Assembly: GCA_027484085.1 (NCBI GenBank)
Contig: JAIXQF010000007.1
Location: 1-43,586, forward strand
Length of the DNA stretch: 43,586 bases
Direction: 5' to 3'
Source: Actinomycetales bacterium
GTDB taxonomy: Bacteria; Actinomycetota; Actinomycetes; S36-B12; UBA5976
In this document: positions 10,998-43,460 of the stretch, piece by piece
Layout: each line of letters begins with the position of its first letter
Numbering within the stretch: the stretch's first letter is position 1
Position numbers and translations under genes: made by a program
The notes under the pieces: model-generated
Database searches by the model: none
What the model was told of the DNA's origin: nothing
What the model saw: the letters and a program-made list of their open reading frames with translations, nothing else

Positions 10998-11097
10998 TTT
11001 TTGAGCGGTCAGCATTGAGAAAATTAACAACTCCGCAAAAAATGACATTGGCAGTGCTGAAAAAAATCAAACTATAAAAATAAACTCAAGGTAAAAA

Positions 11098-12267: not shown

Positions 12268-12338
12268 GAAACAGTTCAAGCTTTCAAAGAAATAAATGAG
12301 ATTGCACAAGCTCCAAACCTACAAAAAATAGGAGCCCT

Positions 12339-22730: not shown

Positions 22731-22846
22731 AAGTTTTTTCACTAATAATACTCTTGTCTAAATTATGATAAAGGTCGTCAGTTAGGGTAATAATTAATAT
22801 CTAAAAACCTATCCAACATCTAAATCTTACTCAAGTCGGGCTGAAA

Positions 22847-24142
22847 ATGAAAATAAGCAAAAATAATGAAATTTCTCCGCAAAAATATGTCGAGATTTTT
22901 TACAAAAAAATGGGAATAAACTCGACTGTAAAGCCAGAACATTTTTGGAGGCAGCTCACAAAAAAATTTGGAAAGATTGCAGATGAATTTGGTGATTGCG
23001 TAGAGGCCCGAGAGAAGGGTGAAAATGTAAATCCTTATATCTTGAAAAATAGCAGCATGGAATTTGCGAATGCAATTGCCTCACAATTTGATTCGGCAAA
23101 AATAAAAGAAATTTTCACATGGTTTATTAATCAAAATTTTGACTGGAAAGAAAAGAAAATCATCGAAATTGGATGCGACAATGGAATATTGCTGTGTCTT
23201 TTTGCATCAATTTTTCATGAGTCACAATTCATTGGTATTGATCCATGTGAGCAGGCAATTCTTCTTGCAAAAGAAAGAGCAAAATTATTAGATTTAAAAA
23301 ACATTGAATTTCACGTTAGCTCCGCAGATAAAATAAATCAAGAGCATCGAAATGCTAAATTTGATTTCATCTTAGCTTTCACTGTTTTTCATGAAATTTT
23401 GGGTGATGGGTTTATTGCAAAAAATAGCACATTGATGAATGGTGATGATGATACATTCTCAATTACGGATGTTGATAAAAGTTTTAATCAAATTATTAGG
23501 CGTGATGAAAGTTTGGTTGCGATTAAAGAATCCTTAACACAAGAAGGAAAATTTATTTCTGTTGACAGGTGGGTCGACCAAAATCAGCTACTCAAGTGGA
23601 TCAGGCTAAATGAAAAGATTGGCTTGAATTTTTCTTTAACGGAAAGCGTAATACTACAAATTAAGCAGCCAGATAGTACGGTCGACTTGCTGCCTTTAAG
23701 CGTGCTTTCTACGATAGAAAAACCGCCTCTGCGAGCCTGTGATATTTTGTCTTTTCGTTCTTATCCGACCTACCTTCAAGCGAAGGCTTTACAAAAAATT
23801 TCAGACCAAGTGATGGCTGAATTATTGTATGAATCCTTTGATAAAACTGAGTTTTATTTCCACAAAATCACGTATAACAACGGATCTGGGACCTTGCATA
23901 CTCACATGGGTGTGGCACAGGGGATTGGTTATATTTATACTACAACTAATACAAATTTTCGTGAACTTATTATCATTCCCTCTGCATTAATTTCTGAGAA
24001 AATATCAGAAGTAGTAGAGGCAAGAATCAATGCTGAATCGTATGCATCAGTTGAATATAAAACCTCAATTAATGATGTATTTTCTACACTCTCGATAAAT
24101 ATTGAATCCTTTGATTCAGCACCACAAAAAATAAATAAATAA
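22847..24142 (+). CDS. Class I SAM-dependent methyltransferase
   Basis: A 431-residue protein. Residues 103-180 form a Rossmann methyltransferase core with motif I 'KIIEIGCDNGILLCLFASIF', the acidic loop 'FIGIDPCEQAILLAKERAK', 'IEFHVSSADKIN' and 'FDFILAFTVFHEI'. The N-terminal helical part and the large C-terminal beta-rich half are unrecognised. The gene is visibly far more AT-rich than its neighbours, with many Lys/Ile/Asn codons, so it was probably acquired separately. No adenine- or cytosine-specific DNA methylase motif (NPPY, PCQ) is seen, so a small-molecule, tRNA or protein substrate is as likely as DNA. Confidence 0.8.
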   Translation: MKISKNNEISPQKYVEIFYKKMGINSTVKPEHFWRQLTKKFGKIADEFGDCVEAREKGENVNPYILKNSSMEFANAIASQFDSAKIKEIFTWFINQNFDWKEKKIIEIGCDNGILLCLFASIFHESQFIGIDPCEQAILLAKERAKLLDLKNIEFHVSSADKINQEHRNAKFDFILAFTVFHEILGDGFIAKNSTLMNGDDDTFSITDVDKSFNQIIRRDESLVAIKESLTQEGKFISVDRWVDQNQLLKWIRLNEKIGLNFSLTESVILQIKQPDSTVDLLPLSVLSTIEKPPLRACDILSFRSYPTYLQAKALQKISDQVMAELLYESFDKTEFYFHKITYNNGSGTLHTHMGVAQGIGYIYTTTNTNFRELIIIPSALISEKISEVVEARINAESYASVEYKTSINDVFSTLSINIESFDSAPQKINK

Positions 24143-24233
24143 TTTTTAAAATACGTCAAGAATTTTTATTTTGGTTCTATAAAGATAGATGTTTTTCTTT
24201 TTTGTTCTTGCTATTCGATTAGTTTGAGCTTTA

Positions 24234-27200: not shown

Positions 27201-27692
27201 AAATCATCTGGCATTGTGTTTGAGCCATTGAACCACGAAGGCTGTTCACAAGACAGTGAGGAAGAAGCGGTCCGAGTCAAAGCAATCTACGATAGCTTGT
27301 TAGAGCAAAGTTATGTCGATGATAAAGGAGCTCGTCACCAGATCACGCCTGAAAACATTTTGGTAGTTTCACCCTACAACATGCAAGTCAATCTTTTAAA
27401 GCAGTATCTTGGCAGTGACGCCAGAGTAGGGACGGTTGATAAGTTCCAAGGACAAGAGGCAGAAGCGGTCATTATCTCCATGGCCACATCAAGCGGAGAG
27501 GATTTGCCGCGTAATATCGATTTCTTGTTTAGCAAGAATCGTCTAAACGTGGCCATATCCCGTGCAAAATGTCTGGTTGTCCTGGTGGCATCTACCAAAC
27601 TACTCGAGGTGAATTGTCGAACACCAGAGCAGATCGCTTTGGTGAATACCTTGTGTTGGGTACATCACGATTTTATAAATATTGATTTCTAA
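24234..27692 (+). CDS. TM0106-type RecB/Cas4-like nuclease fused to RNase H-like and SF1 helicase domains
   Basis: A 1152-residue three-part enzyme. Residues 1-235 are a Cas4/RecB-like nuclease: Asp113, Asp133-x-Lys135, Gln147...Tyr151, with Fe-S cysteines Cys21 and the cluster 'CDKCDLCHWRDRC' (218-230). Residues 330-520 are an RNase H-like (YprB-type) domain with 'DLFFDMEGF' (Asp335, Glu337) and 'YNEEDVISTYELL'. The C-terminal 450 residues are an Upf1-like SF1 helicase with Walker A 'GPPGAGKT' (about 769), 'FVDEAGQ' (about 879), 'VDKFQGQEA' and 'NVAISRAK'. It unwinds and cuts nucleic acid, and helicase-nuclease fusions of this sort are frequent in defence islands. Confidence 0.9.
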   Translation: MQKIEQNIIFSASDLVHFMECEHLSILDRLHLDTPMEKAKDSEEAELIQNRGFAHERAYLEKAKSTAKSYIDIAKAGESRDARVAATVVAMKEGVDLIYQAAFYQAPMIGYADFLKRVDKPSNLGRHSYEIIDTKLSKKSRAKFIIQLAFYADLLEGVQGIAPDCVSVVLGDGFEEKFQLSDYRYYYQSLKQRFLQFLAKSQEQGVAEFAASSDPFPCDKCDLCHWRDRCNNWWDKTDHLTQVANILKTHIHKLNAVGINTVEQLANVPPSARIPKIPDPVLQRLRHQAQLQHKAKTTGERFVELITVDPEQTAEPGPRGFGRLPRPSPHDLFFDMEGFPHVEDGLEYLFGLYYIDGSNRGVFKPFWGHDRIEEKRAFEAWVDFVIGHLDQHPEARIYHYAAYEKTALRKLMRLHGTREKEIDRLLRENKLVDLYQVVREAIRISERSYSIKYVERFYRACRNSEVKSAGSSIVAYQKWRDSDPKEQVILDEIEKYNEEDVISTYELLRWLQKQKPTGLPWYGEHLDEASGELNGGRSEKALAFEKRLATLYAQLSHHIPEDISVRNATQTHASVVRDLLDFHRRTTKPQWWAVFDRQAKSYEERVEEVDCIAGAWPLENCPPVPEKQSLRYTYQYPAQEIKLKTGDNVVLVDSLMGLSDFMVDPEQRIVTFKLGKKREFTPGPIDIGAGTPIDQGVLQNALFRYAESLIQALNAAAASSYPAIDALLRREFPLVSGIESGAPLLPENAEVSDIASVIGRMDHSVIFIQGPPGAGKTYTASHVILDLLKAGKRIGVSSNSHKAIVNLLEAVEKEAKDSGFTFSGVKKSDPQDASQCVNGESIKDIKDKEGIIAADAQLVAGTAWLFADQEFDQQFDYLFVDEAGQVALGMLIPMATSTKNIVLLGDQMQLSQPVEGVHPGSSGDSVLDYLLQGESTISSNRGIFLEKTWRMHPEVCHFISEAVYNGRLASHPKTKERVIICNEAADPALKSSGIVFEPLNHEGCSQDSEEEAVRVKAIYDSLLEQSYVDDKGARHQITPENILVVSPYNMQVNLLKQYLGSDARVGTVDKFQGQEAEAVIISMATSSGEDLPRNIDFLFSKNRLNVAISRAKCLVVLVASTKLLEVNCRTPEQIALVNTLCWVHHDFINIDF

Positions 27693-28598: not shown

Positions 28599-30467
28599 CT
28601 AGTTCGATTGGTTTGTCGAGAATACTACCGACGTACGGTGGTCTGCCCGTATGCTGCGAATAGCCTCAAGTAGCTCCGGATACATGTCAGGTGTGCACTT
28701 ACGACTCGGATATTGAAATACTAATTTTCTGGTGATTTCTAATGACTGTCCATCCAAGTGGTATTCGGAGGTGTATAGAATGTGCTTGGATTCATAACTA
28801 GCGTTTGCCGGCAAGGATTCGATGCTGATATGGTCTGGTAGTTGAATCGAGTACTTGTCTTCGGTGGTGTTGGAATCGCAGACATAAGGAAACACTTTAG
28901 TATCGAGAGGTTTGTAGATAGTCATGGATGCGATATGACCCGGGGATACGCCGACAGGTGGGATGAACGCCCCTTTTTTTCTAAAATCAGTAATTGAATC
29001 AAGCTTGAATGTCGATTGCCACGTAAATGGCGTCTCAATATTCTTAGGCGATGTGTAGCTGATATTTCCTGAACCAATTTCATTAAATCGATACAGCATA
29101 TCGTTGACCGTCTTCTCCATTGATTCTGTCATTTCCGAAAATCTCGCTAATCGATAATTGATCTCCATGGTTCCTGTAAGCACAGACTCATTTTTTCCAT
29201 CTACGCTTCCATCAGAATGAATCTTCATATGCGTGTGGGACGTCAGCTTGTTTTCATCAGCAAACATCTTCGGCGTCCTACCGTAACGATTTAGCGCCAC
29301 AAGGACAGTTGGCTTATCAATGACTTGATCGTCGAGTTTGCCGAATGGGACAAATTGGGCTGTAGAGTCGAGATATAAGTCTAGTGACGGTATGTAGGTG
29401 AGTACGTGATTGATTGGGCTGTGGCCAGCAGGACCTTCTGGTAATTCGAAGGCATCGCCAAGGTTGATCAGTGCAGCCATACTCTCAATGCCGACCGCCC
29501 TAAGCATTGCTTCTAGAAGCACCACGTGATCTTTGCAGTCTCCGAATCGGCGATTGAAGATGTAAGCAGAGTCACGAGGTACGAGTCCGCCGTCATCAAC
29601 GGTCGTTGAAATATAGCGAATGTTTTTTGAAACCCAAGTATAAAGCGCCTTTGCTTTCTCTTGATCTGTAATTGAATTAGCAGTTAAATCATTGGCTAAC
29701 TTCGAAATCTCGGGAGTAACTCGAACTTTTTTATTCGAAGCCTTTTGATATTGACGGCCGATATCGAGATAGTCTCTTGCTTGAGTAATGATGACAAAGG
29801 GTGAATGGTCCGAGCTATCAACGCTGCCGTCTTCCCTTTTTTGTGCAACTGCTTGCTGTATTTGGAAATGATAGGTGATGTACTTTTTTGATTCCGAAAC
29901 TATACCTCCAGTAAAACCCCGATGATTCAGCATCAAGTTTAATGATTTTGGCGCCTTGATCGTAAGTTGAGCGTCTTCATACACCAGGTGTGGTGACAAG
30001 CCAAATTTCAGATCGAATTCACCTTGCTTTTCTGGCTTGAAATGTCTCATGCGGTATTTGCTGCGCAGGCGACTACCAATTTCTACTTGCGGAAACACAA
30101 TGGTGGTCGTGGTTTTATCGTCAAAGTGCCGCCCGTTCCTCTGTTCACCTTCTGACCGCTTGATCCAATCCGGAGCAAGATGAATAGACTTCCCGTTTGG
30201 TAGCAAGCTGCTTGCTAAAAGAATCTTGAAAGATTCTTGTGTGGCTTTTGTTTCAAAGACATGATTTGCAAGAAAATCAACGCCATACTCTGAAACAATA
30301 CGTGTCACACGCTCAACTGTTTCAGAATATCTCCCGCGCTCATCAATATCGATATAGCGATGTACTTTTTCATGAACAATAGGCGGATCGTAAGGTACTG
30401 CCAATACAGCCGGTGCTGCTGCGATTCCTGCAATGATCAAAAATAACTTGGCGTATATTCGGGTCAT
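28599..30467 (-). CDS. Exported DUF3857-transglutaminase protein
   Basis: A 622-residue protein with a signal peptide ('LFLIIAGIAAAPAVLAV', cleavage near 23), a DUF3857 beta domain (about 35-240), a transglutaminase-like domain, and a beta-rich C terminus. The Cys-His-Asp triad is visible: Cys311 in 'RRFGDCKDHVVLL', His354 in 'INHVLTY' and Asp367 in 'LYLDSTAQF'. This DUF3857-TGase pairing is common in Proteobacteria and Bacteroidetes and acts in the envelope; substrate unknown. It follows the VIT-VWA gene by 185 bases on the same strand and may be part of its transcript. Confidence 0.85.
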   Translation of the reverse strand: MTRIYAKLFLIIAGIAAAPAVLAVPYDPPIVHEKVHRYIDIDERGRYSETVERVTRIVSEYGVDFLANHVFETKATQESFKILLASSLLPNGKSIHLAPDWIKRSEGEQRNGRHFDDKTTTTIVFPQVEIGSRLRSKYRMRHFKPEKQGEFDLKFGLSPHLVYEDAQLTIKAPKSLNLMLNHRGFTGGIVSESKKYITYHFQIQQAVAQKREDGSVDSSDHSPFVIITQARDYLDIGRQYQKASNKKVRVTPEISKLANDLTANSITDQEKAKALYTWVSKNIRYISTTVDDGGLVPRDSAYIFNRRFGDCKDHVVLLEAMLRAVGIESMAALINLGDAFELPEGPAGHSPINHVLTYIPSLDLYLDSTAQFVPFGKLDDQVIDKPTVLVALNRYGRTPKMFADENKLTSHTHMKIHSDGSVDGKNESVLTGTMEINYRLARFSEMTESMEKTVNDMLYRFNEIGSGNISYTSPKNIETPFTWQSTFKLDSITDFRKKGAFIPPVGVSPGHIASMTIYKPLDTKVFPYVCDSNTTEDKYSIQLPDHISIESLPANASYESKHILYTSEYHLDGQSLEITRKLVFQYPSRKCTPDMYPELLEAIRSIRADHRTSVVFSTNQSN

Positions 30468-30581
30468 AGGTTCTTCATTTTTCTTTTGATGACTTTGATC
30501 AATTGGTCGCTATACACATGCCAGAAGCGACCTAGATTATTTGTATATTCGTACATCATTTGAGCGATTTGGGATTGCTGA

Positions 30582-30608
30582 GGCATGGGCGTACTACTTG
30601 CCCATGCC
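30582..30608. other. Perfect inverted repeat between two minus-strand genes
   Basis: GGCATGGGC (30582-30590), a 9-base loop, GCCCATGCC (30600-30608). No T-run follows on either strand, so it is not a standard terminator. A weaker GGTCGC/GCGACC pair lies nearby at 30505-30532. It may be an RNA processing structure or a binding site upstream of the transglutaminase gene. Confidence 0.5.
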
Positions 30609-30652
30609 AACAGGCGATGATCGTTAAATCACTTCGAACTTTCTTGGCGAAT

Positions 30653-32962
30653 TTAGAGGTTTTGCCTAATAATCAATTCGTTAAAGTCTAGTGTCTTAGG
30701 ATCGTCTTCCAGTGTGCCCCAGCGATCTTCATGAACCTCTGGCAAGCAGGTACTCAGGCGATCATGGATTTCGTCTTTTACGTCGTCCTGAACCACAGAA
30801 AGAGTATGGTCTAACAGCCGCTTGACCTGCCGAGGGGCGACCTTTGTCTGGTCCAAGGCGCCGACGAGCCAGTCTAGGAATACAGCCCATGCGAGAACGC
30901 GATCATTGAGCTCGGTAGAAATTACACCGATCAGCTCTTCAATCTCCGATGGCAAACCGCAATTCAAAAAGCGGGTGATGGCATCTTCAAAGTCAGTGTA
31001 CGTTAGTGCCACATCCTCAAGGATAGACAATAAGGCCATTGGCTCAATGCCGAACATATCGGGCTCAGCTCGCCGCCGCATATAGCTGGGAGTCTCGGAG
31101 CTTGGAAGGAATTGAGCCATTTTGGACGATCGTAGTGGGGCAGAATATGCCATCGAATACAACACCCTGCTAGCTGATATCTGCACTGGCCGGACCGATC
31201 CCAATCCATGCCAACCGGCGGCCACCATTTGCTGTATTTGGTGCGGTTCTGGTAAGCCTAGTGCTTTGTCATCCGAGTCACGTTGAACCACCATGAAGAG
31301 GTTGGAGTGCTCGGTAACGAGCTGATATTTTATTGCTATCTGACTTGCCGCTTCGGTGTCGGCAGCATCACGCAACAGTTTGGCGCCCACGATTCGTGTG
31401 AGTGTGGATGTTGTCGGGGCTAAATCTAATACGGCCCGAGGGGCTGCTGCGCCGTCGGTAGTTGGCGACAAGATGAGGTTGATTGCAGCAGCAGTAACTA
31501 TCGGCACTTGGCTGGGCTTGTCTTCAAGAATTGCAGCTAGATGGATCATCTCTCCTGGGTAGACGACTTTCGGGACTGGGGAGTGCCAGACAACTGACGT
31601 ATGCCAATTTACAGATAGTCCGGCCACGATGCCTTGGCGCATTCGGTTAACCATGCGCTGCATAGCCGCGGCCATGTCCTCATTCGGTGATACAAACTCG
31701 CAAGCGCCATCACTATGTTCAGTAATCTCGCGCAGCAGACTTTCAGCTGGTGAGCTACCTACGCCAATCGCAAAGATTCTATGATTGGATTCCCTGGCAG
31801 ACTGAATGATATTTTCAATATCCCAGACCTCGCCATCCGTAATCAGCAGCACATTGACCGGCCGCTCTCTGCTCTCACTCGTGATGTTGAAGGTGTCCGT
31901 CAGTGCATCATGCATCTCCGTGCCACCGAGATCGGCGGAGGTTTTATCAATGGCAGGCTCCAGAGATTTTGCCTTAAACTCAGTCGTTGCTGATGTGAGT
32001 TTCCCAACCACGCGACGGGGCTGGCTGCCAAACAGGCTGTAAGAGACTTTATCTGCAGAGCTCAACAATGGCATAAGCGTCCTCAAGCCATTGCGTGCAA
32101 GCTCAATACTGTCACCTTCCATCGATCCCGAGCAGTCAACCAAGATCTTCAACTCAATTTCGGAAGATAGTTTATTGGCCTCTGCATTGAATACAGGAGT
32201 AAAACTTAATAGTGCTGGATACTCATCACCGTCCTTTGCCAGGGAAAAAACACCTTGGCTTTGAACGTCATCAATGACAATGACCAGATCACGATCGAGA
32301 TAGCCCTCACGACTCAAGCTGACTACGGACTGATCATTGTCGTTGCGAACACTGGTTTGATGGCTCGGGCAGCTGATCGCACCTTTTGCAAGGTCTCCGC
32401 CAATAGTAAGTTGCAAGGACAATGGATAAGAAGCTGCGAGACTCGCATCGACTGAAGCAGGTTTTTTCAATTTGCCTGTTTTGATGGGATCTCCATAACG
32501 AGGTGCGATAGTTGTTGGGATAGACAGACGCACCTGGCCTTGTTCGATTCTCAGCAATTGCGCGTATTCGATCTCAATCATGGCCTCTTCATCAGGCTTT
32601 AAGTTACCCATGTGAGCCGTGTATAGACCTTCGCCGGATTTCTCGACCATGATCGGCGTGTCGCCTTCTTTAATAGCCTTCTCGTAATTTTCTTCGGCTT
32701 CAGCTTTCGGTAGAACAGTACCTTGCCAGGTTTTTCCTGCCATCGTAGCGGTCAGACCCAGTAGCGTACATTCCCAAGCCAACGGAAAGGTATAAATCGT
32801 CTCGATATTCTTCTTTGTCGTGTTCTTATAAAACTGACGTGCCTTAACTGTAAAAAGTAGGCCATCAACGCTTGCTTCGATGTCGACCTTTTGCAGCAGT
32901 ACAGGCTGACCTTTCGTTCCTTCAAGTATGGCTTTTTGAATTGTTTCGGTGGATGCAGACAT
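30653..32962 (-). CDS. VIT-VWA domain protein
   Basis: A 769-residue protein with no signal peptide. Residues 15-155 are a VIT domain ('YTFPLAWECTLLGLTATM', then 'YTAHMGNLKPDEEAMIEI'). Residues 268-440 are a VWA domain with full MIDAS: Asp276-x-Ser278-x-Ser280 in 'ILVDCSGSMEG', Thr348 in 'LGGTEMHDAL' and Asp376 in 'LLITDGEVW'. The C-terminal 200 residues are helical and unrecognised. The family resembles inter-alpha-trypsin-inhibitor heavy chains; bacterial members are poorly known. GAGG six bases before the ATG supports the start. It is the second VWA protein in the island, next to the exported transglutaminase. Confidence 0.9.
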   Translation of the reverse strand: MSASTETIQKAILEGTKGQPVLLQKVDIEASVDGLLFTVKARQFYKNTTKKNIETIYTFPLAWECTLLGLTATMAGKTWQGTVLPKAEAEENYEKAIKEGDTPIMVEKSGEGLYTAHMGNLKPDEEAMIEIEYAQLLRIEQGQVRLSIPTTIAPRYGDPIKTGKLKKPASVDASLAASYPLSLQLTIGGDLAKGAISCPSHQTSVRNDNDQSVVSLSREGYLDRDLVIVIDDVQSQGVFSLAKDGDEYPALLSFTPVFNAEANKLSSEIELKILVDCSGSMEGDSIELARNGLRTLMPLLSSADKVSYSLFGSQPRRVVGKLTSATTEFKAKSLEPAIDKTSADLGGTEMHDALTDTFNITSESRERPVNVLLITDGEVWDIENIIQSARESNHRIFAIGVGSSPAESLLREITEHSDGACEFVSPNEDMAAAMQRMVNRMRQGIVAGLSVNWHTSVVWHSPVPKVVYPGEMIHLAAILEDKPSQVPIVTAAAINLILSPTTDGAAAPRAVLDLAPTTSTLTRIVGAKLLRDAADTEAASQIAIKYQLVTEHSNLFMVVQRDSDDKALGLPEPHQIQQMVAAGWHGLGSVRPVQISASRVLYSMAYSAPLRSSKMAQFLPSSETPSYMRRRAEPDMFGIEPMALLSILEDVALTYTDFEDAITRFLNCGLPSEIEELIGVISTELNDRVLAWAVFLDWLVGALDQTKVAPRQVKRLLDHTLSVVQDDVKDEIHDRLSTCLPEVHEDRWGTLEDDPKTLDFNELIIRQNL

Positions 32963-33542: not shown

Positions 33543-33559
33543 GGCTCAAAGACTGAGCT
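33543..33559. promoter_or_regulatory. Island operator, distal of a tandem pair
   Basis: GGCTCA-AAGAC-TGAGCT, one arm mismatch. It lies 79 bases from the minus-strand gene start (33464) and 44 bases (about four helical turns) from the next operator. Confidence 0.65.
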
Positions 33560-33586: not shown

Positions 33587-33619
33587 GGCTCATCTAATGA
33601 GCCTGGTGATTTTTATACT
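33587..33619. promoter_or_regulatory. Island operator (perfect) overlapping a promoter for the SprT-like gene
   Basis: GGCTCA-TCTAA-TGAGCC at 33587-33603, followed by a -10 TATACT at 33614-33619. The -35 position for a 16-18 bp spacer falls inside the operator and lacks a good hexamer, so a bound protein would directly block, or replace, -35 contact. Confidence 0.65.
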
Positions 33620-33667: not shown

Positions 33668-34255
33668 ATGGCGATAAAACCCACAACCCGGGAGTCTTGG
33701 CTGGAAGCTGCGGTTCAGGAATTAATACCGATCTTTGTAAAAGCTGGCTTCGCGGTCCCTTTGTGTAGGGTGTCCTGTGGATTTGCAAGCACTGGGGCAA
33801 GGAGCGGCCATATTGGCCAGTGCTGGAGTACGAAAGCGAGTAAAGACGGGATAAATCAGATCTTTGTGTCACCTGCATTGGAGGAAGCCATTGAGGTGCT
33901 CGATACTTTGGTCCACGAACTAGTTCATGCCGTGGACGATTGCCAGCATAAGCATGGCAAAGAGTTTAAAAAAATAGCAATTAAATTAGGAATGACTGGG
34001 CCAATGCGCAGCGCAGGCGCTGGGCCCATATTGAAAGAGAAACTAAAGGAGGTGGCGGGCAGGCTTGGGGCTTATCCGCATGCCAGGCTATCCGTACCCA
34101 TGAAGACCGTGACCAGATCGCCGCGGCCACGAGCAAAGTGCCGAAAATGTGGATTCACAGTCCCAATGCTAAAAGACTTTTTGCATTATGGGCCGCCAAT
34201 ATGCCCGAAAGACCGGGTTGAGATGGAAGCAATCGGCGATTGGGAAATAGCTTAG
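33668..34255 (+). CDS. SprT-like zinc metalloprotease
   Basis: A 195-residue protein with the SprT/Spartan-type zinc motif 'LVHELVHAVDDCQHKHG' (His83-Glu84...His87, third ligand His94 or His96) and a C-terminal zinc ribbon ('CRKCGF' then 'PPICPKD'). Spartan-family proteases cleave DNA-protein crosslinks; short bacterial and phage SprT-like proteins are little studied. GAGG precedes the ATG. Its last four bases overlap the end of the convergent WYL gene 2. Confidence 0.85.
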   Translation: MAIKPTTRESWLEAAVQELIPIFVKAGFAVPLCRVSCGFASTGARSGHIGQCWSTKASKDGINQIFVSPALEEAIEVLDTLVHELVHAVDDCQHKHGKEFKKIAIKLGMTGPMRSAGAGPILKEKLKEVAGRLGAYPHARLSVPMKTVTRSPRPRAKCRKCGFTVPMLKDFLHYGPPICPKDRVEMEAIGDWEIA

Positions 34256-35229
34256 CGTTCGTATTGCCGGGAGGCGGATTCATGCTCCCGGTGTACCTTG
34301 TCACGCAGGGCTTTGGGAGAAAGGACCTTAACTGCAGCACCATGTTTGGCAATATCAAGCAGGAGTTCGCGGTCGTCAGAATAGGGGAATTCAAGAATAT
34401 AAGCGCCAGACTCATCAAATGAGCCCCTTTGGTCAGGATGCCAAAGCTCAGCAGCTACCCAGCGGGCGCGCTCAGGGGTAAATTTCAGTTTTGCAGTATG
34501 TTTGGATTTACCTGCAAAGATGCCGTAGCTGACAGCAAGATATTGGTCGAGAGACTTGATGGATACATCGATAGCTTTTTTATTAACAGGGTTTATAGCT
34601 CGGATGCCATCCAGAGAAAATCCGCGTAGTCCGTCTCTTAGGTGACACCATGCATCTAAGTACCAGTTATCTCGATAGTGAATTAAACGCTGAGGGGAGA
34701 TTTCGCGGAGGGTGATTTCGTTACTTGCTCGAGCGTAGTATTGGATTTCGATGCGTTGTCGCTTGAAAAGGGCAACCCCAACTTCGGAGAAAAAATGACT
34801 ACCTTGAACGCGACGGCCCATATCAACTAGCTTGATGCGCTTGCGAATTTCTTTTGACGAGGATTCACCCTCGCCAATGACTGCATCGAGACGCGAAAGA
34901 AAGGGTTGGATGTGTGGCCCGATGATGCTGCCTTGATCGAGGTTCTCGAGCAGCTGCTGCATGGTGATCAGCGCAAAGATCTCTTGCTCGGAGAACCAAA
35001 GACCGGGAAGCGAAAACTTGTTCTTGCTGTTGGTGGTGCTCTCGTAGCGATATCCCCGAAGGTCATTGTCGTAGACCACCGGAGCGTTAAAGCGATCGCG
35101 CATGTATTCAAGGTCGCGCTTGAAGGTGGCAAGCGACACTTCAAGAATCGAAAGAAAAGTGTCTCGACTGACGATTTTTCGATCTTGAAGAACTTGATCG
35201 ATTTTATAGAAGCGTTCAAGACGGTTCAT
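34252..35229 (-). CDS. WYL domain transcriptional regulator 2
   Basis: A 325-residue paralogue of the regulator at 21286, aligning end to end by eye. Its recognition region 'SLATFKRDLEYMRDR' (32-46) matches the other at 13 of 15 positions, and the WYL motif is 'YRDNWYLDAWCHLRD'. GAGG lies eight bases before the ATG. It is downstream of the Hsp70-like gene (222-base AT-rich gap carrying only a GGCTCA half-site at 35442-35447). It also contains a near-operator (GACTCA-TCAAA-TGAGCC, 34409-34425) in its own coding sequence. Related WYL proteins (BrxR) repress BREX; here it lies three genes from BREX. Confidence 0.9.
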   Translation of the reverse strand: MNRLERFYKIDQVLQDRKIVSRDTFLSILEVSLATFKRDLEYMRDRFNAPVVYDNDLRGYRYESTTNSKNKFSLPGLWFSEQEIFALITMQQLLENLDQGSIIGPHIQPFLSRLDAVIGEGESSSKEIRKRIKLVDMGRRVQGSHFFSEVGVALFKRQRIEIQYYARASNEITLREISPQRLIHYRDNWYLDAWCHLRDGLRGFSLDGIRAINPVNKKAIDVSIKSLDQYLAVSYGIFAGKSKHTAKLKFTPERARWVAAELWHPDQRGSFDESGAYILEFPYSDDRELLLDIAKHGAAVKVLSPKALRDKVHREHESASRQYER

Positions 35230-35451: not shown

Positions 35452-36774
35452 CTACCGGAAAGGTGATGAAAGCGACCGTATGATGGGCTGCTGCATCTCA
35501 GTTCTTGGCCAGTCCGCAGCAGGAGTGGTACCACCTAATGCAACTGCCATACGAGCACGTGATGCATCAACCTCAAAACCTCTTGGTGTAGTCACCTCTG
35601 TCTGTGATGAAGTTAACTTTGCATCCCCCATAGCGACAATGCCACCGATAATTTTTCTTAAGAACTGAAGATTTGCGCCACCGCCTGCGAAAACTACATC
35701 GAGATGAGAAATGCCGTGGTTTGAAGCGTGAAGTTGTGCTTTAAAGCGGGAGCCCGCGTCCTCTAGCATTTCCATGATTGCAGTTTTTAAACCACTTGCC
35801 ATTTTTTGGAGTTTGTCTGTTCGTACGAGTTCTTCTCGCGAAACTTGTACCTTTCGGAAAACCAGATTGCCGGTCTCGAATAGCGTTTCTTTGGAGCGGC
35901 GAATATCATTTTTCAGTGCTGCAAGGTCAATACCGCTATTTGGACCGAGCCTTTCTGCAACTAATTTTATTAGAGCGTCGTCGATTTCATCTCCTGCACC
36001 GAACAAGCTACGTGCAGGTGTCATTGGAATAAGCTTCCGGGTTACCTTCGAATATTCATCTGGTAAAACAGAGACAAATAGACCTAAGTCGATGGTGCCC
36101 GCCCCGACGTCCACGACTAAAGTTGCGCTACGATTGTTTGGGGAAGGATCTTGAAGTAACTCAAGCGCCGCAGCAACAGGTTCTTCAACCTCAACATCGA
36201 AGGATGGTTTTTTTGATGCTTGACTTGCTTTTTTATACCAGAGGTTAAACTGATCAGTACTCATTTCCTGCATTATCGCTGACCCAGTAGTGCTGAATGC
36301 GATATGACTGAGCTGATCGTAAACAACGGCTATTTTTTGTCGATCCGATGTACTCCAGACGGGGTGACTTATGCGATATGAGAGAGCGCTGGTTTTTAAC
36401 TTAAAAATATTTTTGCCTGCAACTATTGAGTCTTTTACTGCCAGCGCTAGTAAACCAGCGATTAGTTGAAATCGGGAAAATGGTGCGCTACTTACTTCCG
36501 ACTGATGTACCTGAGAGATGTTTGTTGGACTGAGCCAGGATTTCGGGCTTGATTCAAAAAGCAATCGTGGCTGGGCAGAGAGACCTGCCTCAAGTGCTTT
36601 GTCACCAAAGAAAATCTTATCGCCAGCAATTGGAATAAAGATAGCGCTAGGAATAGATGCATTATCAATTTGACTTCTCGGTGCAATTGCAAGCGGATGC
36701 GATACCGAATCCTTTTGTTTTCGTATTGCGGCTCTAATAGAACTGGTCCCGAAATCAATGCAAAGAGTGTCCAC
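35452..36774 (-). CDS. Hsp70-like ATPase lacking the substrate-binding domain
   Basis: A 440-residue actin-fold ATPase of the Hsp70/HscC type. Phosphate 1 is 'LCIDFGTSSIRAA' (4-16), the connector 'VEEPVAAALELLQD' (about 196-209) matches the Hsp70 EPTAAALAYG block, phosphate 2 is 'LVVDVGAGTIDLGLF' (219-233), 'FGAGDEIDDAL' matches GG-DFD, and the adenosine motif is 'VVFAGGGANLQFL' (360-372). It ends there: no beta-sandwich substrate domain or lid. The start is GTG with AAGGTG upstream. It lies 11 bases after a gene with a GrpE-like tail, suggesting a dedicated ATPase/exchange-factor pair. Confidence 0.85.
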   Translation of the reverse strand: MDTLCIDFGTSSIRAAIRKQKDSVSHPLAIAPRSQIDNASIPSAIFIPIAGDKIFFGDKALEAGLSAQPRLLFESSPKSWLSPTNISQVHQSEVSSAPFSRFQLIAGLLALAVKDSIVAGKNIFKLKTSALSYRISHPVWSTSDRQKIAVVYDQLSHIAFSTTGSAIMQEMSTDQFNLWYKKASQASKKPSFDVEVEEPVAAALELLQDPSPNNRSATLVVDVGAGTIDLGLFVSVLPDEYSKVTRKLIPMTPARSLFGAGDEIDDALIKLVAERLGPNSGIDLAALKNDIRRSKETLFETGNLVFRKVQVSREELVRTDKLQKMASGLKTAIMEMLEDAGSRFKAQLHASNHGISHLDVVFAGGGANLQFLRKIIGGIVAMGDAKLTSSQTEVTTPRGFEVDASRARMAVALGGTTPAADWPRTEMQQPIIRSLSSPFR

Positions 36775-36785
36775 AAAATCACCTT

Positions 36786-38135
36786 TCAGTTCACTGGGAA
36801 GACCAATGCACGAGTCAGAATTCTTTGGGAGTTATCGCTTCTCAACAGTCGAACGCCAGGTATTTCAATGCGAACGTTAGTTGGTGGTTGTGCGCTGCTA
36901 TCTCCAAGAAAATGTTGAAGCGGCTGATACTGAACTAAATCTCCCTTTGAACCATACATTTCTATTTTTGCCTTGCTCGCAACTAGATTAACTAAAGTGC
37001 TCACTTCATTTGCGACAGACGGATCGGGAAGATCGGAGCAGTACCGATACCAAGAAATCAAAAGGGCCGCTATTTGTTCCTGAATTCCTGAATGAGCGGA
37101 TAGTTCATCGCTGCCTTCAATCGCAGGATCTTTAGTCGGCGAGAGGATGGCTTTAACTAGCTCTCTATCTGTGATGAATCTTGCCGAAATTTTTTCTATT
37201 GGTAAGCAATGGGAGGCAAATGCTAATAGCTGTCTGACCTCGACAGTATTATTCATGCCATACATCTTTACGTGCTGAAGCACAGTGCTTACTATTCGCG
37301 AGCTTAAAGGGTTAAGATTTTTTTGTAGTGTTTTCGGTAAACCGCCTGGCTGCTTCGAAAGGATTGTCAGGCCTTGAAGTGTTTTTTCACTAAGCAGTAT
37401 CGTCGGCTCGCGAGCGCTTATCGTTTCCAAAATTCCGAGCGTAGATTTTTGAATTTCAAGAATAGCTTTCGAAGAAGAGTGATTTTTTTGACTAAGGTCG
37501 ACTACCGCCGAAGCTAAAATAGAAAACTCCTCTCCAAAATAACCACCTGATTCGATTTCACGCGATGGCAAAAACTTAGCTACTAATTTAAGTACTTGAT
37601 TAACGTGATCAAGATCGTTGGCGTGCGCCGTCTGAATTATGCTCGACAGTTCCTTTACTAAATCAGCATACGTAGTGCTTGAAGTGATTGCTAATTTTGC
37701 GAGTTCGTTGGCAAGTGCTTTGCTTGTTTGTGTATTTATTGCTTCTTTCAGGGCATAAGAAATCTTCCAGCTTGCCTTTAATGGTCCCAAAAGTTTGATA
37801 GAACCAATCCGCTCGTCATCGTTAGCCAAGGTGTTCAAAGCGGGTGGAGCAGTATCAATCCACCGTAGCGGTCGGATTTTTTGCTTGGCTGCCGACTTAC
37901 TACCTTTAACGATCGCCAATCCAATAAGCCCGAGACACTGATACGCAAGTACTTCATCGGATTCTTTTTGAAGTTTTATTGCAAGCAGATTCACCTTCCG
38001 ATCGATATCGTCAGAGAACTTCTCATCAATCTTTTTTTTGTTCAGTGGTAGCAGCGATCGCAATACAGCAACAATTTCAGCGGTATCGGCTTCGTTGCTG
38101 GCAGGTGAATTCGAAGGTGGGGTGGATGTAGTCAT
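36786..38135 (-). CDS. Helical protein with GrpE-like C-terminal wing, partner of the Hsp70-like ATPase
   Basis: A 449-residue protein whose first 385 residues are helical and unrecognised. The last 60 residues ('GDLVQYQPLQHFLGDSS', 'TNVRIEIPGVRLLRSDNSQ', 'LTRALVFPV') follow the GrpE beta-wing pattern G..FDP..HE......PGTVV.V...GY.L.DRVLRPA.V, position by position. GrpE is the nucleotide exchange factor of Hsp70. Here the usual long N-terminal coiled coil is replaced by a large helical region that may bind the client. It is first of the minus-strand operon divergent from BREX, with no clear ribosome site before ATG 38135. Confidence 0.6.
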   Translation of the reverse strand: MTTSTPPSNSPASNEADTAEIVAVLRSLLPLNKKKIDEKFSDDIDRKVNLLAIKLQKESDEVLAYQCLGLIGLAIVKGSKSAAKQKIRPLRWIDTAPPALNTLANDDERIGSIKLLGPLKASWKISYALKEAINTQTSKALANELAKLAITSSTTYADLVKELSSIIQTAHANDLDHVNQVLKLVAKFLPSREIESGGYFGEEFSILASAVVDLSQKNHSSSKAILEIQKSTLGILETISAREPTILLSEKTLQGLTILSKQPGGLPKTLQKNLNPLSSRIVSTVLQHVKMYGMNNTVEVRQLLAFASHCLPIEKISARFITDRELVKAILSPTKDPAIEGSDELSAHSGIQEQIAALLISWYRYCSDLPDPSVANEVSTLVNLVASKAKIEMYGSKGDLVQYQPLQHFLGDSSAQPPTNVRIEIPGVRLLRSDNSQRILTRALVFPVN

Positions 38136-38282
38136 TTTATTATCGTTTTGTATGCCGTAACCTCATCATTATCCCTATAAAACTAAGTCTCAGCGAACCA
38201 TTTTGTTTTTAAAAAAATAATATATTTAATCGTCGTAAAAATTTGACGCTGCTGAGAACTAGAACAATTCTTACCCTCGACA

Positions 38283-38299
38283 AGCTCACCCAGTGAGCC
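38283..38299. promoter_or_regulatory. Island operator, distal copy in the BREX divergent region
   Basis: AGCTCA-CCCAG-TGAGCC, one arm mismatch. It is 148 bases from the minus-strand gene start and 51 bases (about five helical turns) from the next copy. Confidence 0.65.
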
Positions 38300-38333: not shown

Positions 38334-38380
38334 AGCTCACTTGGTGAGCCTATTGACAAGCAATATTTACGACTTAAAGA
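38334..38380 (+). promoter_or_regulatory. Island operator abutting the BREX promoter
   Basis: AGCTCA-CTTGG-TGAGCC (38334-38350). Two bases later begins a consensus -35 TTGACA (38353-38358). The best -10 is the weak TAAAGA (38375-38380, spacer 16). A protein on the operator would touch RNA polymerase at -35, compatible with repression or with class II-type activation of a weak promoter. Confidence 0.65.
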
Positions 38381-38438
38381 CTTAAAATTGAAAATTTTGC
38401 ACTATTATGGTCTTGTTTTCTATCAACTTGCATTAACT

Positions 38439-38672
38439 ATGTCTACAAGCGCAGGCGAAGGTGGAATCCTCACGATCAGGGAAGTCGCGGTTTACTTGAA
38501 GGTGACTGAGCGAACGATCTACAGGCTCGCGGCAGCTAAACAGATGCCCGCGTTTAAGATCGGCGGTAGTTGGCGATTCTCGCGCTTGGATATCGACAGT
38601 TGGATCAAGCAACAGTCAATGGAGGGGCTTGATGATCGTATAAACAAAGAAATTGAGCCCCTGAAGCGATGA
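38439..38672 (+). CDS. Excisionase-type HTH protein, first gene of the BREX operon
   Basis: A 77-residue HTH_17 protein: 'ILTIREVAVYLKVTERTIYR' then 'MPAFKIGGSWRFSRLDIDSW', the typical helix-turn-helix plus wing. I prefer ATG 38439 to the TTG at 38388, which would add 17 hydrophobic, uncharacteristic residues. Its stop overlaps the brxA start (ATGA), so it is translated with BREX. Small HTH proteins of this kind precede DUF1819 genes in many BREX loci; a role in BREX regulation or targeting is not established. It resembles the HTH gene at 3543 in type. Confidence 0.8.
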   Translation: MSTSAGEGGILTIREVAVYLKVTERTIYRLAAAKQMPAFKIGGSWRFSRLDIDSWIKQQSMEGLDDRINKEIEPLKR

Positions 38673-39466
38673 CAAAACTTGATAAAAACAAACATCTAGA
38701 ACGCTTCGGGTTTAGCTACGAGCGTGGTGGAGTTCATACCGCAAGAACAATGATGCTCGTTGAATTACGGGCTTTGCTGTCGTTCGTCGACAATACGGAT
38801 GCACCCAAAAGTGAATATCTAGACGCCATTCAAACAGCAAACTGCCTTGGCAAGCGATCTGGCAAAACGCGTGTTTTGACCTTCAGGCACTTAGCTGATC
38901 TTTATTCGCTTGATCCCAAACTACCCTTGTTCCGCGCACTGCGCTTTTTTTGGCAGCGCGATGTAGACGGTCAGCCACTTATAGCGGCAATAAGCGCTTA
39001 TGCGCGCGACCCGCTTTTCCGTATTACCGCACCATTCATCCTTAATTTTCATGAGGGTGCGACTATTTCACGAATAGCACTTGAGGAGTTTATAGAGCAC
39101 CAGGAGCCCGGCCGATTCAGCAAAGCGACTTTGAAATCAACTGCTCAAAACATCAATTCGTCATGGACCCAGTCGGGGCATCTTTCAGGCAGAGCACGCA
39201 AGATTCGTGAGCGTACGATCGCTACGCCTGGTTCTGTTTCATTAGCGTTGCTAATGGGTTACCTCAGCGGCCTACGTGGAGAGTCACTTTTCAATAGTGA
39301 CTTCACCCGTTTACTTGACTGTTCATTTGATAAGACGATCGAATTGGCAGAGGACGCTTCACGGCGTGGATGGATCTCGCTAAAACGAGTTGGTCAGGTG
39401 ATCGAAGTCCTTTTTCCAAACTTGATCACCATACAAGAAATGGAGTGGCTCCGTGAGCAGAATTAA
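38669..39466 (+). CDS. brxA: BREX protein BrxA (DUF1819)
   Basis: A 265-residue DUF1819 protein: 'GFSYERGGVHTARTMMLVEL' at the N terminus and 'LADLYSLDPKLPLFRALRFF' followed by 'LIAAISAYARDPLFRITAPF' are the family's landmarks. BrxA is a helical DNA-binding protein, part of the BREX phage-exclusion system, which marks host DNA by methylation and blocks phage replication. It overlaps the HTH gene upstream by 4 bases and brxB downstream by 14 bases. This tight packing is typical of type 1 BREX. Confidence 0.92.
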   Translation: MTKLDKNKHLERFGFSYERGGVHTARTMMLVELRALLSFVDNTDAPKSEYLDAIQTANCLGKRSGKTRVLTFRHLADLYSLDPKLPLFRALRFFWQRDVDGQPLIAAISAYARDPLFRITAPFILNFHEGATISRIALEEFIEHQEPGRFSKATLKSTAQNINSSWTQSGHLSGRARKIRERTIATPGSVSLALLMGYLSGLRGESLFNSDFTRLLDCSFDKTIELAEDASRRGWISLKRVGQVIEVLFPNLITIQEMEWLREQN

Positions 39467-40004
39467 GCGCTTAATCCAGTCATACAGTAAGTACGTCGCT
39501 GTACCTTGGCGCGATGACGCTGCTGCAGCTCAGCGGGTCATCTTCTGTGTTTACAACGAGACAGAAGAACTGCGCTTGCGCGCAAAAGTAGATGAGTTCG
39601 AAATTGCGACACGTGCTTCAGGCCATGAATGGGCACTTTTTGACTTTACCGATACCTTCCCCAATTGGCTTTCATCACAGAGATATGCAAAGAGCTATTT
39701 TGAAAAGCCAAACCTCTTGTCAACACTGCTACCGAAGTACCTTTCCTTCATTGAAACCGAATTTGCCTCATTCTTGCAAACTAAAGAAGTGAATGGAGAT
39801 TTCGTTATTGCTATCAAAGGTGTTGGATCGCTTTTCGGTTTCTTGAAAGTCAAAGAGGTAGTAGACAAACTCGCCCCGATGGTCGAAGGTCGTCTTCTGG
39901 TGTTTTTTCCTGGCAGCTACGAAGACAACAACTACCGACTGTTAGATGGATACGACGGTTGGAACTACTTGGCTGTACCCATAACTGCCGACAAAGAATT
40001 TTGA
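39453..40004 (+). CDS. brxB: BREX protein BrxB (DUF1788)
   Basis: A 183-residue DUF1788 protein starting at a GTG inside the end of brxA. Landmarks: 'YNETEELRLRAKVDEFEIAT', 'WALFDFTDTFPNWLSSQRYA', 'IAIKGVGSLFGFLKVKEVVD' and 'GRLLVFFPGSYEDNNYRLLD'. It is a required BREX component of unknown biochemical role. The PD-(D/E)XK-type effector site seen in other systems is not evident. It is followed after 15 bases by brxC. Confidence 0.92.
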   Translation: MSRIKRLIQSYSKYVAVPWRDDAAAAQRVIFCVYNETEELRLRAKVDEFEIATRASGHEWALFDFTDTFPNWLSSQRYAKSYFEKPNLLSTLLPKYLSFIETEFASFLQTKEVNGDFVIAIKGVGSLFGFLKVKEVVDKLAPMVEGRLLVFFPGSYEDNNYRLLDGYDGWNYLAVPITADKEF

Positions 40005-40019: not shown

Positions 40020-43000
40020 ATGCTCAACCGTGAAATTTATCAAAAAGATCCCTCCACTCGAAAATTAGTAAATGAGGGTGTGGCTAGCGTCAACGATGAA
40101 AAAACAAGCCATGCACTTTCAGTTCTTAGATATGAATTGGAAACCTTCGTCTGTGATGGCCAATATGAAAAGGGTCTGGTACATATTCTTGAGACATATC
40201 TGAAAAACATTGAGCAGTCTGAGCAACCTGCTGTTTGGGTGAGTGGCTTCTATGGCTCTGGTAAATCTCACCTGGTTAAGATGCTTCGTACACTTTGGGT
40301 CGACAGCAGCTTTGACGATGGAGCAACTGCTCGAGGCATTGCATCACTTCCCAAAAGTGTGAGTGACCAACTTAAAGAGCTCAGTACTCAAGCCAAGCGA
40401 CACGGTGGTTTGCATGCGGCATCAGGAACGCTTGGATCTAGTTCTCGCGACAAATCTGTTCGAATGGCATTGCTTGGAGTACTTTTTAAATCGGTAGGTC
40501 TGCCAGAGCAATACCCAGTAGCCCGTTTTGTAATGTGGCTCCAACACGAAGGTATTTACGATGCAGTGCACAGCCAAGTAGAGAAAAGTGGCTTTGATTG
40601 GAACGAGGAGTTGGACAACTTTTATGTCGCTGAGGGTTTGCATGAAGCGCTGGTCAAAGCCAAGCCTAATTTATTCACATCCACAGCGTCTTGCGTTGAA
40701 ACCCTGAACAACTTGTACCCCTATGTGCAAGACGTCTCAAGCGGCGATATGCTCAAAGCTATTCGGCAAGCACTAACTAAAGACGGTAAGTTTCCTCTCA
40801 CCTTGGTGGTTTTGGATGAGGTGCAGCAGTACATCGGTGAAGACAGCCAACGATCGATCGACGTTCAAGAAGTTGTTGAGGCCTGTTGCAAGAACATTGG
40901 AGCCAAGATGCTGTTTATGGGCACTGGGCAAACGGCTGTGACAGGAACATCTAATTTGAAAAAGCTCGAAGGCCGCTTTACCGTTCGAGTCGAACTGTCA
41001 GATGCTGACGTGGACGCAGTGATTCGTAAAGTTATTTTGGCGAAAAAACCTGAAGCAAAGGCTTCAGTTGAGAATGTGATGCAAACAAATTTAGGTGAGA
41101 TCTCTCGTCACCTGTCGGGTACAACCATCGGCCATCGCCCAGATGACATTCAATTTTTTCCGCAAGATTACCCCATCCTTCCTGTGCGCCGTCGCTTTTG
41201 GGAAAGCGCCCTTAGAGTGCTCGATCAGACAGGAACGGATAGCCAACTGCGAAACCAGCTGTCCATGATCCATAAGGTCATCCAGACTAATGTGGATGCA
41301 CCAGTTGGCTGCGTAGTGCCTGCGGATTATCTCTATTTTGATGCAGCTGACAAGCTACTTCAATCGCGTATTTTGCCGCGCAAAGTTCATGAGCGCACTA
41401 TGGTCTGGATCAAGGGTACAGATGACCAGAGGCTAATGGCCCGCGCGTGCGGCTTAGTGTTTTTGGTCAACAAGCTCGCTAGTAGCAATAACGAAATCGG
41501 CATTCATGCGACCCTCGATACCTTGGCTGATTTGTTGGTCGAGGACCTCACGCAAGGTTCCAGTGCACTGCGCAGCAAGTTGCCTGACATCTTGGACAAA
41601 TGCGAATTATTGATGAAGGTGGGGGATGAGTATCGGATTCAAACCGAAGAAAGCGCCGCCTGGAACGACGAGTTTTTGAGCCAGCGTAGTAACTTGGCCA
41701 ACGAAGCTCATCGCGTTGACGCTGAGCGCGACGATCGTATTCGCCGAAAATTTGGTGAGTTGGTTCGTAAACTATCACTAGCACAGGGCACATCTAAAGT
41801 AACAAGGGACATGTACCCCGTCTTTGATGCCCAGCTTCCATCTGATGTCAATGAAAAGATATCAATCTGGGTTCGAGACGGATGGAGCATTGATGAGAAC
41901 TCTGTTCGGGCCGATGCGCGACAAATAGGCAACCAGTCGCCAACTGTTTTTGTATTTATTCCAAAGCGATCCGCAGATGATCTTCGACATTACCTGATCG
42001 ACTTTAAAGCGGCCAGCGCCACACTGGATAAGAGGGGCATCCCCAATACGGCAGAAGGCACAGAGGCTTACTCAGCCATGGACACCACGAAGAAAACTGC
42101 AGAAGGCAAGATCAACGAACTTTTGCAAGAAGCATTTTCTGGTGCGCGTGTTTTCCAAGGCGGCGGAAACGAAATTCTTGGCAATGACCTTCAAGCCATG
42201 GTGCTTGAGGCAGCCACCAATTCGTTGCAGCGCCTCTATCCGCAGTTCCACATCGCGGATCATGGTGGTTGGTCCAAGGTCTATGAAAAGGCACAAAAGG
42301 GCGCACCTGATGCATTGAAGAGCGTGGGCGATGACGGTGAGCCTGCGATGAACTCAGTCTGTAAGGCGATTCTGGCCTATATCGCGGGCGGTAAGAAGGG
42401 AATAGACATACGGAAAAACTTTGAAGGAGCCACATACGGTTGGCCTGGTGATGCCGTAGATGGTGGCTTGCAAGTGCTTCTGGTTGCAGGGCTGATCCGC
42501 GCCCAGGACGAGAGGGGCCAGACCATCGATCCGAAGGAGCTGGAGCGCAAAGTTATCGGCAAGACTATGTTTAAGGTTGAGTCGGCCACGGTTTCTGCAG
42601 CGCAGCGTATTCAGATCCGCAAAGTGCTTCAGAAGGTCGGCCTCATTGCCAAGCAAGGCGAAGAGCTAGCCTACGTGCCGCAGTTCTTGGTTAGCGCACA
42701 AGAATTGGCTAATCGCGCAGGTGGTGAAGCTCCTCGGCCAGCACGACCTGCCACTGCCGGTCTGGAAGAAATACGTCTCACAGTAGGTAACGAGCAGCTC
42801 TTGGCTTTGTACAACCAGCGTGACGAGCTAAGTCAAGCAATCGATACCTGGACAGAAGTCGCCGAGCGTATTGAAAACCGTATGCCAACCTGGAACATCT
42901 TGAAGCGTCTTCTGGCTCAGGTCAGTGGCTTATCTGGTGCCGAAGTATTGCTGGCGCAAATTACGCACCTTGAGCAGCAGCGACTTTTGCTTGAGGAGCC

Positions 43001-43460
43001 CGATCCCATCACGCCTCTGGTCGCCAACCTCACGCAGTTGCTGCGTGATGAGCTCAACCGTCTGCAAATCAACTATCAGACCCATCACAAAAATGGCATG
43101 GAGCGACTAGACGGAGACACTAATTGGAAGCAGCTGGAACCTGAGCAGCGCAACACCCTTCTCGCCGCTCAAAAACTCACGCTCGCCGACTCACCTCAAG
43201 TGCAAGTAGCCAACACCGACGAAGTGCTTGCCACGGTTGATCGACTGTCGCTTTCGTCGTTTTCTGATCGTGTGGCAGCCATCGATTCACGTTTTGACGC
43301 AGTACTAGTCGCCTCAGCTGAGTTGATGGAGCCTAAGGCACAGTTCGTTAAGCTGCCAAGCCGCACGATCAAGACCGAAGAAGATATCGATGCCTGGCTA
43401 CTGGACGCAAAACAATCCATCGCACAGGCTTTGATACGCGGCCCTGTCATCCTTCACTGA
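40020..43460 (+). CDS. brxC: BREX P-loop ATPase BrxC
   Basis: A 1146-residue protein of the size expected for BrxC (PglY-related). Walker A is 'GFYGSGKS' at residues 76-83 in 'VWVSGFYGSGKSHLVKML', and Walker B 'LVVLDEVQQYIGED' lies near 265. Long helical C-terminal regions (about 900-1050) look coiled. It is a STAND/AAA-like ATPase thought to form the scaffold of the BREX complex. GGGG precedes the ATG. The gene is intact, with no frameshift seen. Confidence 0.95.
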   Translation: MLNREIYQKDPSTRKLVNEGVASVNDEKTSHALSVLRYELETFVCDGQYEKGLVHILETYLKNIEQSEQPAVWVSGFYGSGKSHLVKMLRTLWVDSSFDDGATARGIASLPKSVSDQLKELSTQAKRHGGLHAASGTLGSSSRDKSVRMALLGVLFKSVGLPEQYPVARFVMWLQHEGIYDAVHSQVEKSGFDWNEELDNFYVAEGLHEALVKAKPNLFTSTASCVETLNNLYPYVQDVSSGDMLKAIRQALTKDGKFPLTLVVLDEVQQYIGEDSQRSIDVQEVVEACCKNIGAKMLFMGTGQTAVTGTSNLKKLEGRFTVRVELSDADVDAVIRKVILAKKPEAKASVENVMQTNLGEISRHLSGTTIGHRPDDIQFFPQDYPILPVRRRFWESALRVLDQTGTDSQLRNQLSMIHKVIQTNVDAPVGCVVPADYLYFDAADKLLQSRILPRKVHERTMVWIKGTDDQRLMARACGLVFLVNKLASSNNEIGIHATLDTLADLLVEDLTQGSSALRSKLPDILDKCELLMKVGDEYRIQTEESAAWNDEFLSQRSNLANEAHRVDAERDDRIRRKFGELVRKLSLAQGTSKVTRDMYPVFDAQLPSDVNEKISIWVRDGWSIDENSVRADARQIGNQSPTVFVFIPKRSADDLRHYLIDFKAASATLDKRGIPNTAEGTEAYSAMDTTKKTAEGKINELLQEAFSGARVFQGGGNEILGNDLQAMVLEAATNSLQRLYPQFHIADHGGWSKVYEKAQKGAPDALKSVGDDGEPAMNSVCKAILAYIAGGKKGIDIRKNFEGATYGWPGDAVDGGLQVLLVAGLIRAQDERGQTIDPKELERKVIGKTMFKVESATVSAAQRIQIRKVLQKVGLIAKQGEELAYVPQFLVSAQELANRAGGEAPRPARPATAGLEEIRLTVGNEQLLALYNQRDELSQAIDTWTEVAERIENRMPTWNILKRLLAQVSGLSGAEVLLAQITHLEQQRLLLEEPDPITPLVANLTQLLRDELNRLQINYQTHHKNGMERLDGDTNWKQLEPEQRNTLLAAQKLTLADSPQVQVANTDEVLATVDRLSLSSFSDRVAAIDSRFDAVLVASAELMEPKAQFVKLPSRTIKTEEDIDAWLLDAKQSIAQALIRGPVILH

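Follow-up and report, generated by a model that had tools for sequence, protein, structure and literature searches.

An Hsp70/actin-superfamily ATPase and its helical partner beside BREX: a short, divergent relative of the PDC-M61 gene pair

Two adjacent genes, here called A and B, lie back to back with a BREX operon, and they raise the question of what an ATPase with Hsp70-like nucleotide motifs and a helical partner protein are doing at such a locus. The preliminary description proposed a possible new defence or chaperone module in which client binding had moved from the ATPase to a partner with a GrpE-like wing, under an operator shared with BREX. Here, we ask to which family the pair belongs, what its two proteins resemble, and whether it is tied to BREX, working throughout on the window, by which we mean the whole stretch of 43,586 nucleotides that was analysed.

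Two conserved genes of the PDC-M61 kind

The genes run on the minus strand in the order A, B and a WYL/WCX regulator, with A upstream of B and 11 bases between the two open reading frames. On the other side of A begins a divergent operon in which PADLOC identified brxA, brxB and brxC, confirming that the pair adjoins BREX. Both genes also have copies on L003, a contig of 44 kb from an Oxalobacteraceae MAG, where A, B, a WYL gene and an SprT-like gene keep the same order.

34252..35229, minus strand: BrxR-kind WYL/WCX regulator lying downstream of B (Pfam WYL 1.2e-17, WCX 1.4e-14)
35452..36774, minus strand: gene B, PDC-M61B relative, 440 aa, predicted ATPase (PADLOC PDLC04731; dN/dS 0.22)
36786..38135, minus strand: gene A, PDC-M61A relative, 449 aa (PADLOC PDLC04730; dN/dS 0.20)
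36786..36971, minus strand: C-terminal segment of A, residues 389-449, KIEMYG...YQPLQH...VRIEIPG...RILTRALVFPVN, possibly GrpE-wing-like (Smith-Waterman)
35467..38198, minus strand: mobile cassette of A, B and a 63-bp leader (blastn 88.5% to L003 8577-11308; dS)
38388..38672, plus strand: small HTH_17 DNA-binding protein, encoded at the start of the divergent BREX operon (Pfam 7.9e-17)
38669..39466, plus strand: brxA (PADLOC 8.5e-104)
39453..40004, plus strand: brxB (PADLOC 1.7e-80)
40020..43460, plus strand: brxC, with the rest of BREX beyond the window (PADLOC E=0; NCBIfam BREX_BrxC 1.2e-285)

The two proteins are 85.6 and 87.1% identical in amino acids to their L003 copies. Because they are conserved there with a dN/dS of about 0.2, A and B are true genes, and purifying selection acts on both proteins. 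The preliminary description had recognised two real reading frames with the right coordinates, but in one line it exchanged those of the ATPase and the partner; the ATPase is 35452-36774.

In PADLOC-DB, both proteins match models of PDC-M61, a phage-defence candidate (PDLC04727-04731), and as in that family the two matching genes are adjacent, A then B. B matches PDC-M61B (PDLC04731) at 3.8e-35 and 119.7 bits, with the main stretch at positions 323-556 of 588, and A matches PDC-M61A (PDLC04730) at 6.5e-11 and 39.7 bits. The pair is therefore not new as a defence candidate, contrary to the initial proposal, and a literature search found no publication describing PDC-M61. The window pair differs from the family models in that A is significant over positions 50-239 of 482 only, and in having a WYL regulator and an operator attached. 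B, moreover, starts at about position 125 of its 588-position model, with positions 1-124 missing, and we call it a short variant because it lacks the 120-residue N-terminal extension. This extension is present in the B protein of L043, a canonical pair from a genome in the order of the L003 host (A of 506 aa and B of 586 aa, scoring 575 and 772 bits), whose adjacency, strand and A-first order are those of the window and L003. Upstream of the L043 pair are recBCD-type genes with no obvious defence island, and the flank downstream of its B is cut off. By profile comparison, then, the window pair is a short, divergent relative of PDC-M61.

The pair is rare: three genome samples built around the L003 host, itself counted each time, contained it in 3 of 399, 2 of 195 and 1 of 329 genomes. 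Searches at class and phylum level covered the MAG's own lineage, as indicated by its actinobacterial-looking GrpE, and are silent on the likely host group of the cassette. Plasmid, phage and viral-contig searches revealed no A or B homologue; a viral match (L044) was set aside as a ParM-like actin homologue with no solenoid partner, and another candidate (G544/L006) was a chance match with no B present. At a separate locus (L010, 144-4801), a relative of M61B faces a convergent operon that contains a 908-aa unannotated protein and a second Hsp70-like fragment (LFVDVGATTIDASVF).

The ATPase and its helical partner

B carries all five types of Hsp70 nucleotide motif in the order found in the Hsp70/DnaK nucleotide-binding domain (NBD): phosphate-1 (IDFGTS), connect-1 (EEPVAAA), phosphate-2 (VVDVGAGTIDLGLF), adenosine (VFAGGGA) and connect-2 (ASRARMAVALGG). 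These are largely conserved in an alignment of four family members, among which the L010 copy is cut by a contig end and so is without phosphate-1. A counterpart of DnaK Lys70 could not be placed in B, and a motif scan of the window for a J-domain found none. The protein ends only 23 residues after connect-2, its last motif, and therefore has no substrate-binding domain; in contrast to Hsp70/DnaK the linker is likewise missing, and the alignment shows B to be about 30 residues shorter in subdomain IIB. Alignment of relatives indicates that the missing substrate domain is a family-wide trait, which extends to the canonical L043 member. Both halves of the original description of B, an ATPase that retains the Hsp70 nucleotide motifs and stops before the substrate domain, thus hold.

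Database matches place B more broadly than the Hsp70 family. Pfam HSP70 (PF00012) matched neither B at E 1 nor its relatives at E 10, and single-sequence matches of B were weak: NCBIfam MamK at 7.7e-7 was the best curated one, with DnaK at ~5e-4 and Pfam MreB_Mbl at 0.0013, while Pfam Alp7A_like_C reached 0.021 in one homologue. A PDB search with a profile of four family members gave DnaK NBD structures as the best matches at 2.9e-8, with MreB at 1.3e-4. Since Pfam HSP70 is not reached, "Hsp70-type NBD" is right for the superfamily, whereas "Hsp70" as a family name is not, and on these motifs and matches we classify B as an ATPase of the Hsp70/actin superfamily. Its resemblance to actin-like ATPases such as MamK means that a chaperone-type switch is not the sole reading. 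B might instead polymerise like MreB, MamK or ParM, with A as a filament-binding adaptor, and the MamK, MreB_Mbl and Alp7A_like_C matches are what such an actin-like module would predict. We consider this unlikely: the family profile prefers DnaK over MreB, the PADLOC family has a solenoid as its partner, and neither a filament partner nor a centromere-like repeat was seen nearby.

Protein A divides into a helical solenoid (residues ~1-388) and a beta-rich C-terminal segment (~389-449). An AlphaFold model from two usable sequences had a pLDDT of 53, with residues 121-240 mostly at 70-82, and Foldseek with VIA-align matched this low-confidence model to HEAT/ARM-like helical repeats with Z up to 9.8, values that can also reflect a common arrangement. 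On this modelling, A is probably a HEAT/ARM-like solenoid. What had been announced as a novel 385-residue helical region is indeed helical, but it is homologous to PDC-M61A and therefore has relatives.

The C-terminus of A had been read as a GrpE beta-wing. Its last 61 residues (KIEMYGSKGDLVQYQPLQHFLGDSSAQPPTNVRIEIPGVRLLRSDNSQRILTRALVFPVN; K is residue 390) align collinearly over their full length with GrpE wings, and their mean Smith-Waterman score against GrpE exceeded shuffles with z of 3.7 to 4.3 (p 0.002-0.004; window and L003), the GrpE set being sequences from the MAG's own order and not a diverse sample. The same shuffle test on L043, a distant relative of A, gave p 0.07, single solved GrpEs gave p 0.04-0.7 against the A C-terminus, and other real protein segments match its GrpE score. 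A GrpE HMM scored A inside the shuffle range, Pfam GrpE matched neither A nor its relatives, and PDB sequence searches with A or its C-terminus returned no GrpE match. With hhalign, the C-terminus reached a P of 0.17 against GrpE, which was exceeded by column shuffles; the best alignment was in the expected register. A possible wing motif, [FY]-x-P-x-x-H ... G ... R-x-[LI] ... V, can be traced in A, although its signature residues are degenerate. Within the family, the A proteins of the window and L043 are only 23% identical overall yet share Y-x-P-L-Q-H, VRI and the G after it, marking the C-terminus as a conservation hot spot.

The wing of GrpE is laid out as a helix followed by six short strands. 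AlphaFold predicted this same layout for the isolated A C-terminus, at a pLDDT of 48, and a structure search with that model returned nothing significant, GrpE being absent among the matches listed. The originally proposed GrpE-like wing is weakly supported, by shuffle similarity along its full length, with HMM, hhalign and PDB searches null. We regard a GrpE-like wing on A as possible. The stronger proposal, in which A would be a genuine GrpE-type exchange factor joined to a solenoid that binds the client, seems fairly unlikely to us. It draws on the whole-wing collinear alignment and the predicted helix and strands, but it is opposed by the null HMM, hhalign and PDB results and by the L043 test; in addition, A shows no evident counterpart of the long GrpE dimerisation helix and carries 385 residues of helical repeats and not a coiled coil with a four-helix bundle.

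An exchanged block and a repeated operator-like palindrome

Comparison with L003 separates the pair from its surroundings. DNA identity is 88.5% across 35467-38198 and ~75% or less in the flanks (blastn), and the block is bounded by the B stop on one side and a point 63 bp upstream of A on the other. Between the window and L003, dS is 0.33-0.35 for A and B and 1.44 for WYL; for the SprT-like, second WYL and helicase genes it has reached saturation. Judged by this divergence, the two islands are old relatives, and exchange of the A-B block is recent.

Beyond A, the window has BREX, whereas L003 has a type IIG restriction enzyme together with a PLD-Snf2 helicase, and the genes scanned there include no BREX gene. 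Because the A-B block is shared while BREX is swapped for these enzymes, the pair travels as its own cassette, and because the L003 cassette has no BREX gene among its scanned neighbours, the pair is not a BREX component. The special tie to BREX that was first suggested is therefore not upheld, and joint transfer is the strongest evidence, drawn from sequence comparison, for A and B acting jointly and independently of BREX. The pair could still be imagined as a specific BREX helper, for example in assembling or disassembling BrxC/PglX complexes, which would suit the divergent promoter region held in common with the BREX operon and its two operator copies. With the L003 cassette beside a helicase and a type IIG enzyme, and recBCD-type genes on the readable side of L043, we rate such a role as distinctly unlikely.

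The contig itself (C12, window 1-43586) is most likely mis-binned, or else a recent import. The GrpE genes of the bin look actinobacterial, and its family has genomes of 1-2 Mb. Tetranucleotide patterns of the window correlate with those of six other bin pieces at 0.04-0.37, compared with mostly 0.33-0.69 for the six pieces among themselves, and the second half of the window correlates with the L003 contig at 0.60-0.63. Gene kinship in the window is also unlike the rest of the bin and resembles the Oxalobacteraceae contig.

Further genes of the window were noted in passing. Positions 21286-27692, a stretch syntenic with L070 of the L003 host, hold the second WYL regulator (21286-22257) together with genes for a methyltransferase and for a PD-(D/E)XK/RNase-H-like/AAA helicase of 1152 aa that is weakly MkoA-like. 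A VIT-VWA protein and a DUF3857/transglutaminase protein adjoin the island at 28599-32962, where the DNA is partly ~72% identical to L003, and 4915-6543 encodes a protein of 542 aa that contains ten Sel1 repeats and locally shows a weak match to a PtuA model.

The operator said to be shared between the pair and BREX was confirmed as an operator-like palindrome, and it extends well beyond them.

33544-33558 and 33588-33602: two operator-like palindromes upstream of the SprT-like gene
38284..38298: palindrome GCTCA-N5-TGAGC, operator-like, located in the promoter region between the divergent A and BREX genes, 149 bp upstream of where A starts
38335..38349: second operator-like palindrome of that region, nearer the BREX side

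Eight exact copies of GCTCA-N5-TGAGC occur in the window (at 6916, 8645, 17233, 21201, 33544, 33588, 38284 and 38335), against ~0.04 expected by base count alone, and half-sites with any other spacer from 0 to 11 amount to two sites in all. The whole 1.8-Mb bin contains ten palindromes, eight of which are on the window contig; the L003 host genome also contains ten, four of them on the island contig. In L003, a palindrome at 8477-8491 precedes the A start at 8640 by exactly the same 149 bp, and a palindrome pair again precedes the SprT-like gene. Behind the copy at 8645, positions 8862-14201 encode VWA, DUF2130 and YacP-like NYN proteins that have no PADLOC match and are possibly uncharacterised island genes.

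Published operators of BrxR combine inverted repeats, 10-11 bp long, with spacers of 5 bp (PMC9122601, PMC9122589). The palindromes described here are likewise inverted repeats with a 5-bp spacer upstream of candidate WYL-regulated defence genes; they differ in their half-site, GCTCA, and in number, with eight copies over 43 kb here versus two R-boxes in the pEFER island. The two WYL proteins of the window are 45.8% identical to each other, and we infer a candidate island-wide regulon under one or both of them.

Operator copies also precede genes that do not look like defence genes, and some of the M61B homologues (L011, L043) have ordinary genes as neighbours, both of which would fit a housekeeping chaperone carried as cargo in a hot spot and unrelated to phage defence. 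We think this improbable, as the family was picked out by PADLOC for its candidate role in defence, the two well-flanked loci are restriction or BREX islands with WYL regulators, and the distribution is rare and patchy.

Proposed function and known systems

For this pair we observe conservation, family identity, a missing substrate domain, joint transfer and repeated operator copies. The reading we favour, which we hold as plausible though somewhat short of probable, is a mobile two-gene cassette of the PDC-M61 kind in which B is the switch and A a client or sensor solenoid, repressed via the island operator. B, an Hsp70-type NBD that has no substrate domain, would act as an ATP-driven switch, and the alpha-solenoid of A would hold the client or sensor surface. 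A would bind B, most likely via its C-terminal beta segment, perhaps a GrpE-like wing, so that client binding on A could be coupled to nucleotide exchange on B. A WYL repressor of the BrxR type, presumed to bind the island-wide palindromic operator, would keep the pair off; release would come jointly for the pair and whichever system neighbours it, which is BREX in the window and a Snf2 helicase with a type IIG enzyme elsewhere. The role of the pair would be anti-phage.

A more far-reaching version, which we judge unlikely as a whole, would make the pair a transferable immune co-factor: a substrate-domain-less Hsp70 and a solenoid-plus-GrpE-wing partner for client recognition and exchange, co-regulated with, and exchangeable between, unrelated restriction-type systems. 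If the proposed function is right, bacterial immunity would include a portable layer of chaperone-type ATPases, able to serve alongside different DNA-targeting systems, and an Hsp70 machine could be reassembled so that a separate protein bears its client site. That exactly two genes were transferred jointly points to a minimal unit, and the repeated operator suggests that one kind of regulator switches a whole mosaic island, a wider arrangement than the published two-site BrxR case.

Known conflict systems offer precedents for parts of the favoured switch-and-solenoid cassette. In GAP1-N2 systems, GrpE and a normal HSP70 are accompanied by an HSP70 "sans its peptide-binding domain" (Kaur et al. 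2020, PMC7159879), an earlier case of an exchange factor occurring with an Hsp70 that has no substrate domain; these systems differ in being centred on GTPases and in having a normal HSP70 as well, neither of which was seen among the genes scanned here. CoCoNuT systems have substrate-domain-like parts and McrB/McrC GTPase partners, whereas no McrB-like GTPase or McrC-like partner was found among the genes scanned here. Their CnuD/CnuCD proteins nevertheless join an Hsp70-like ATPase to HEAT-like repeats in a restriction island, sometimes with BREX (PMC11090510), a combination and setting that A and B probably share.
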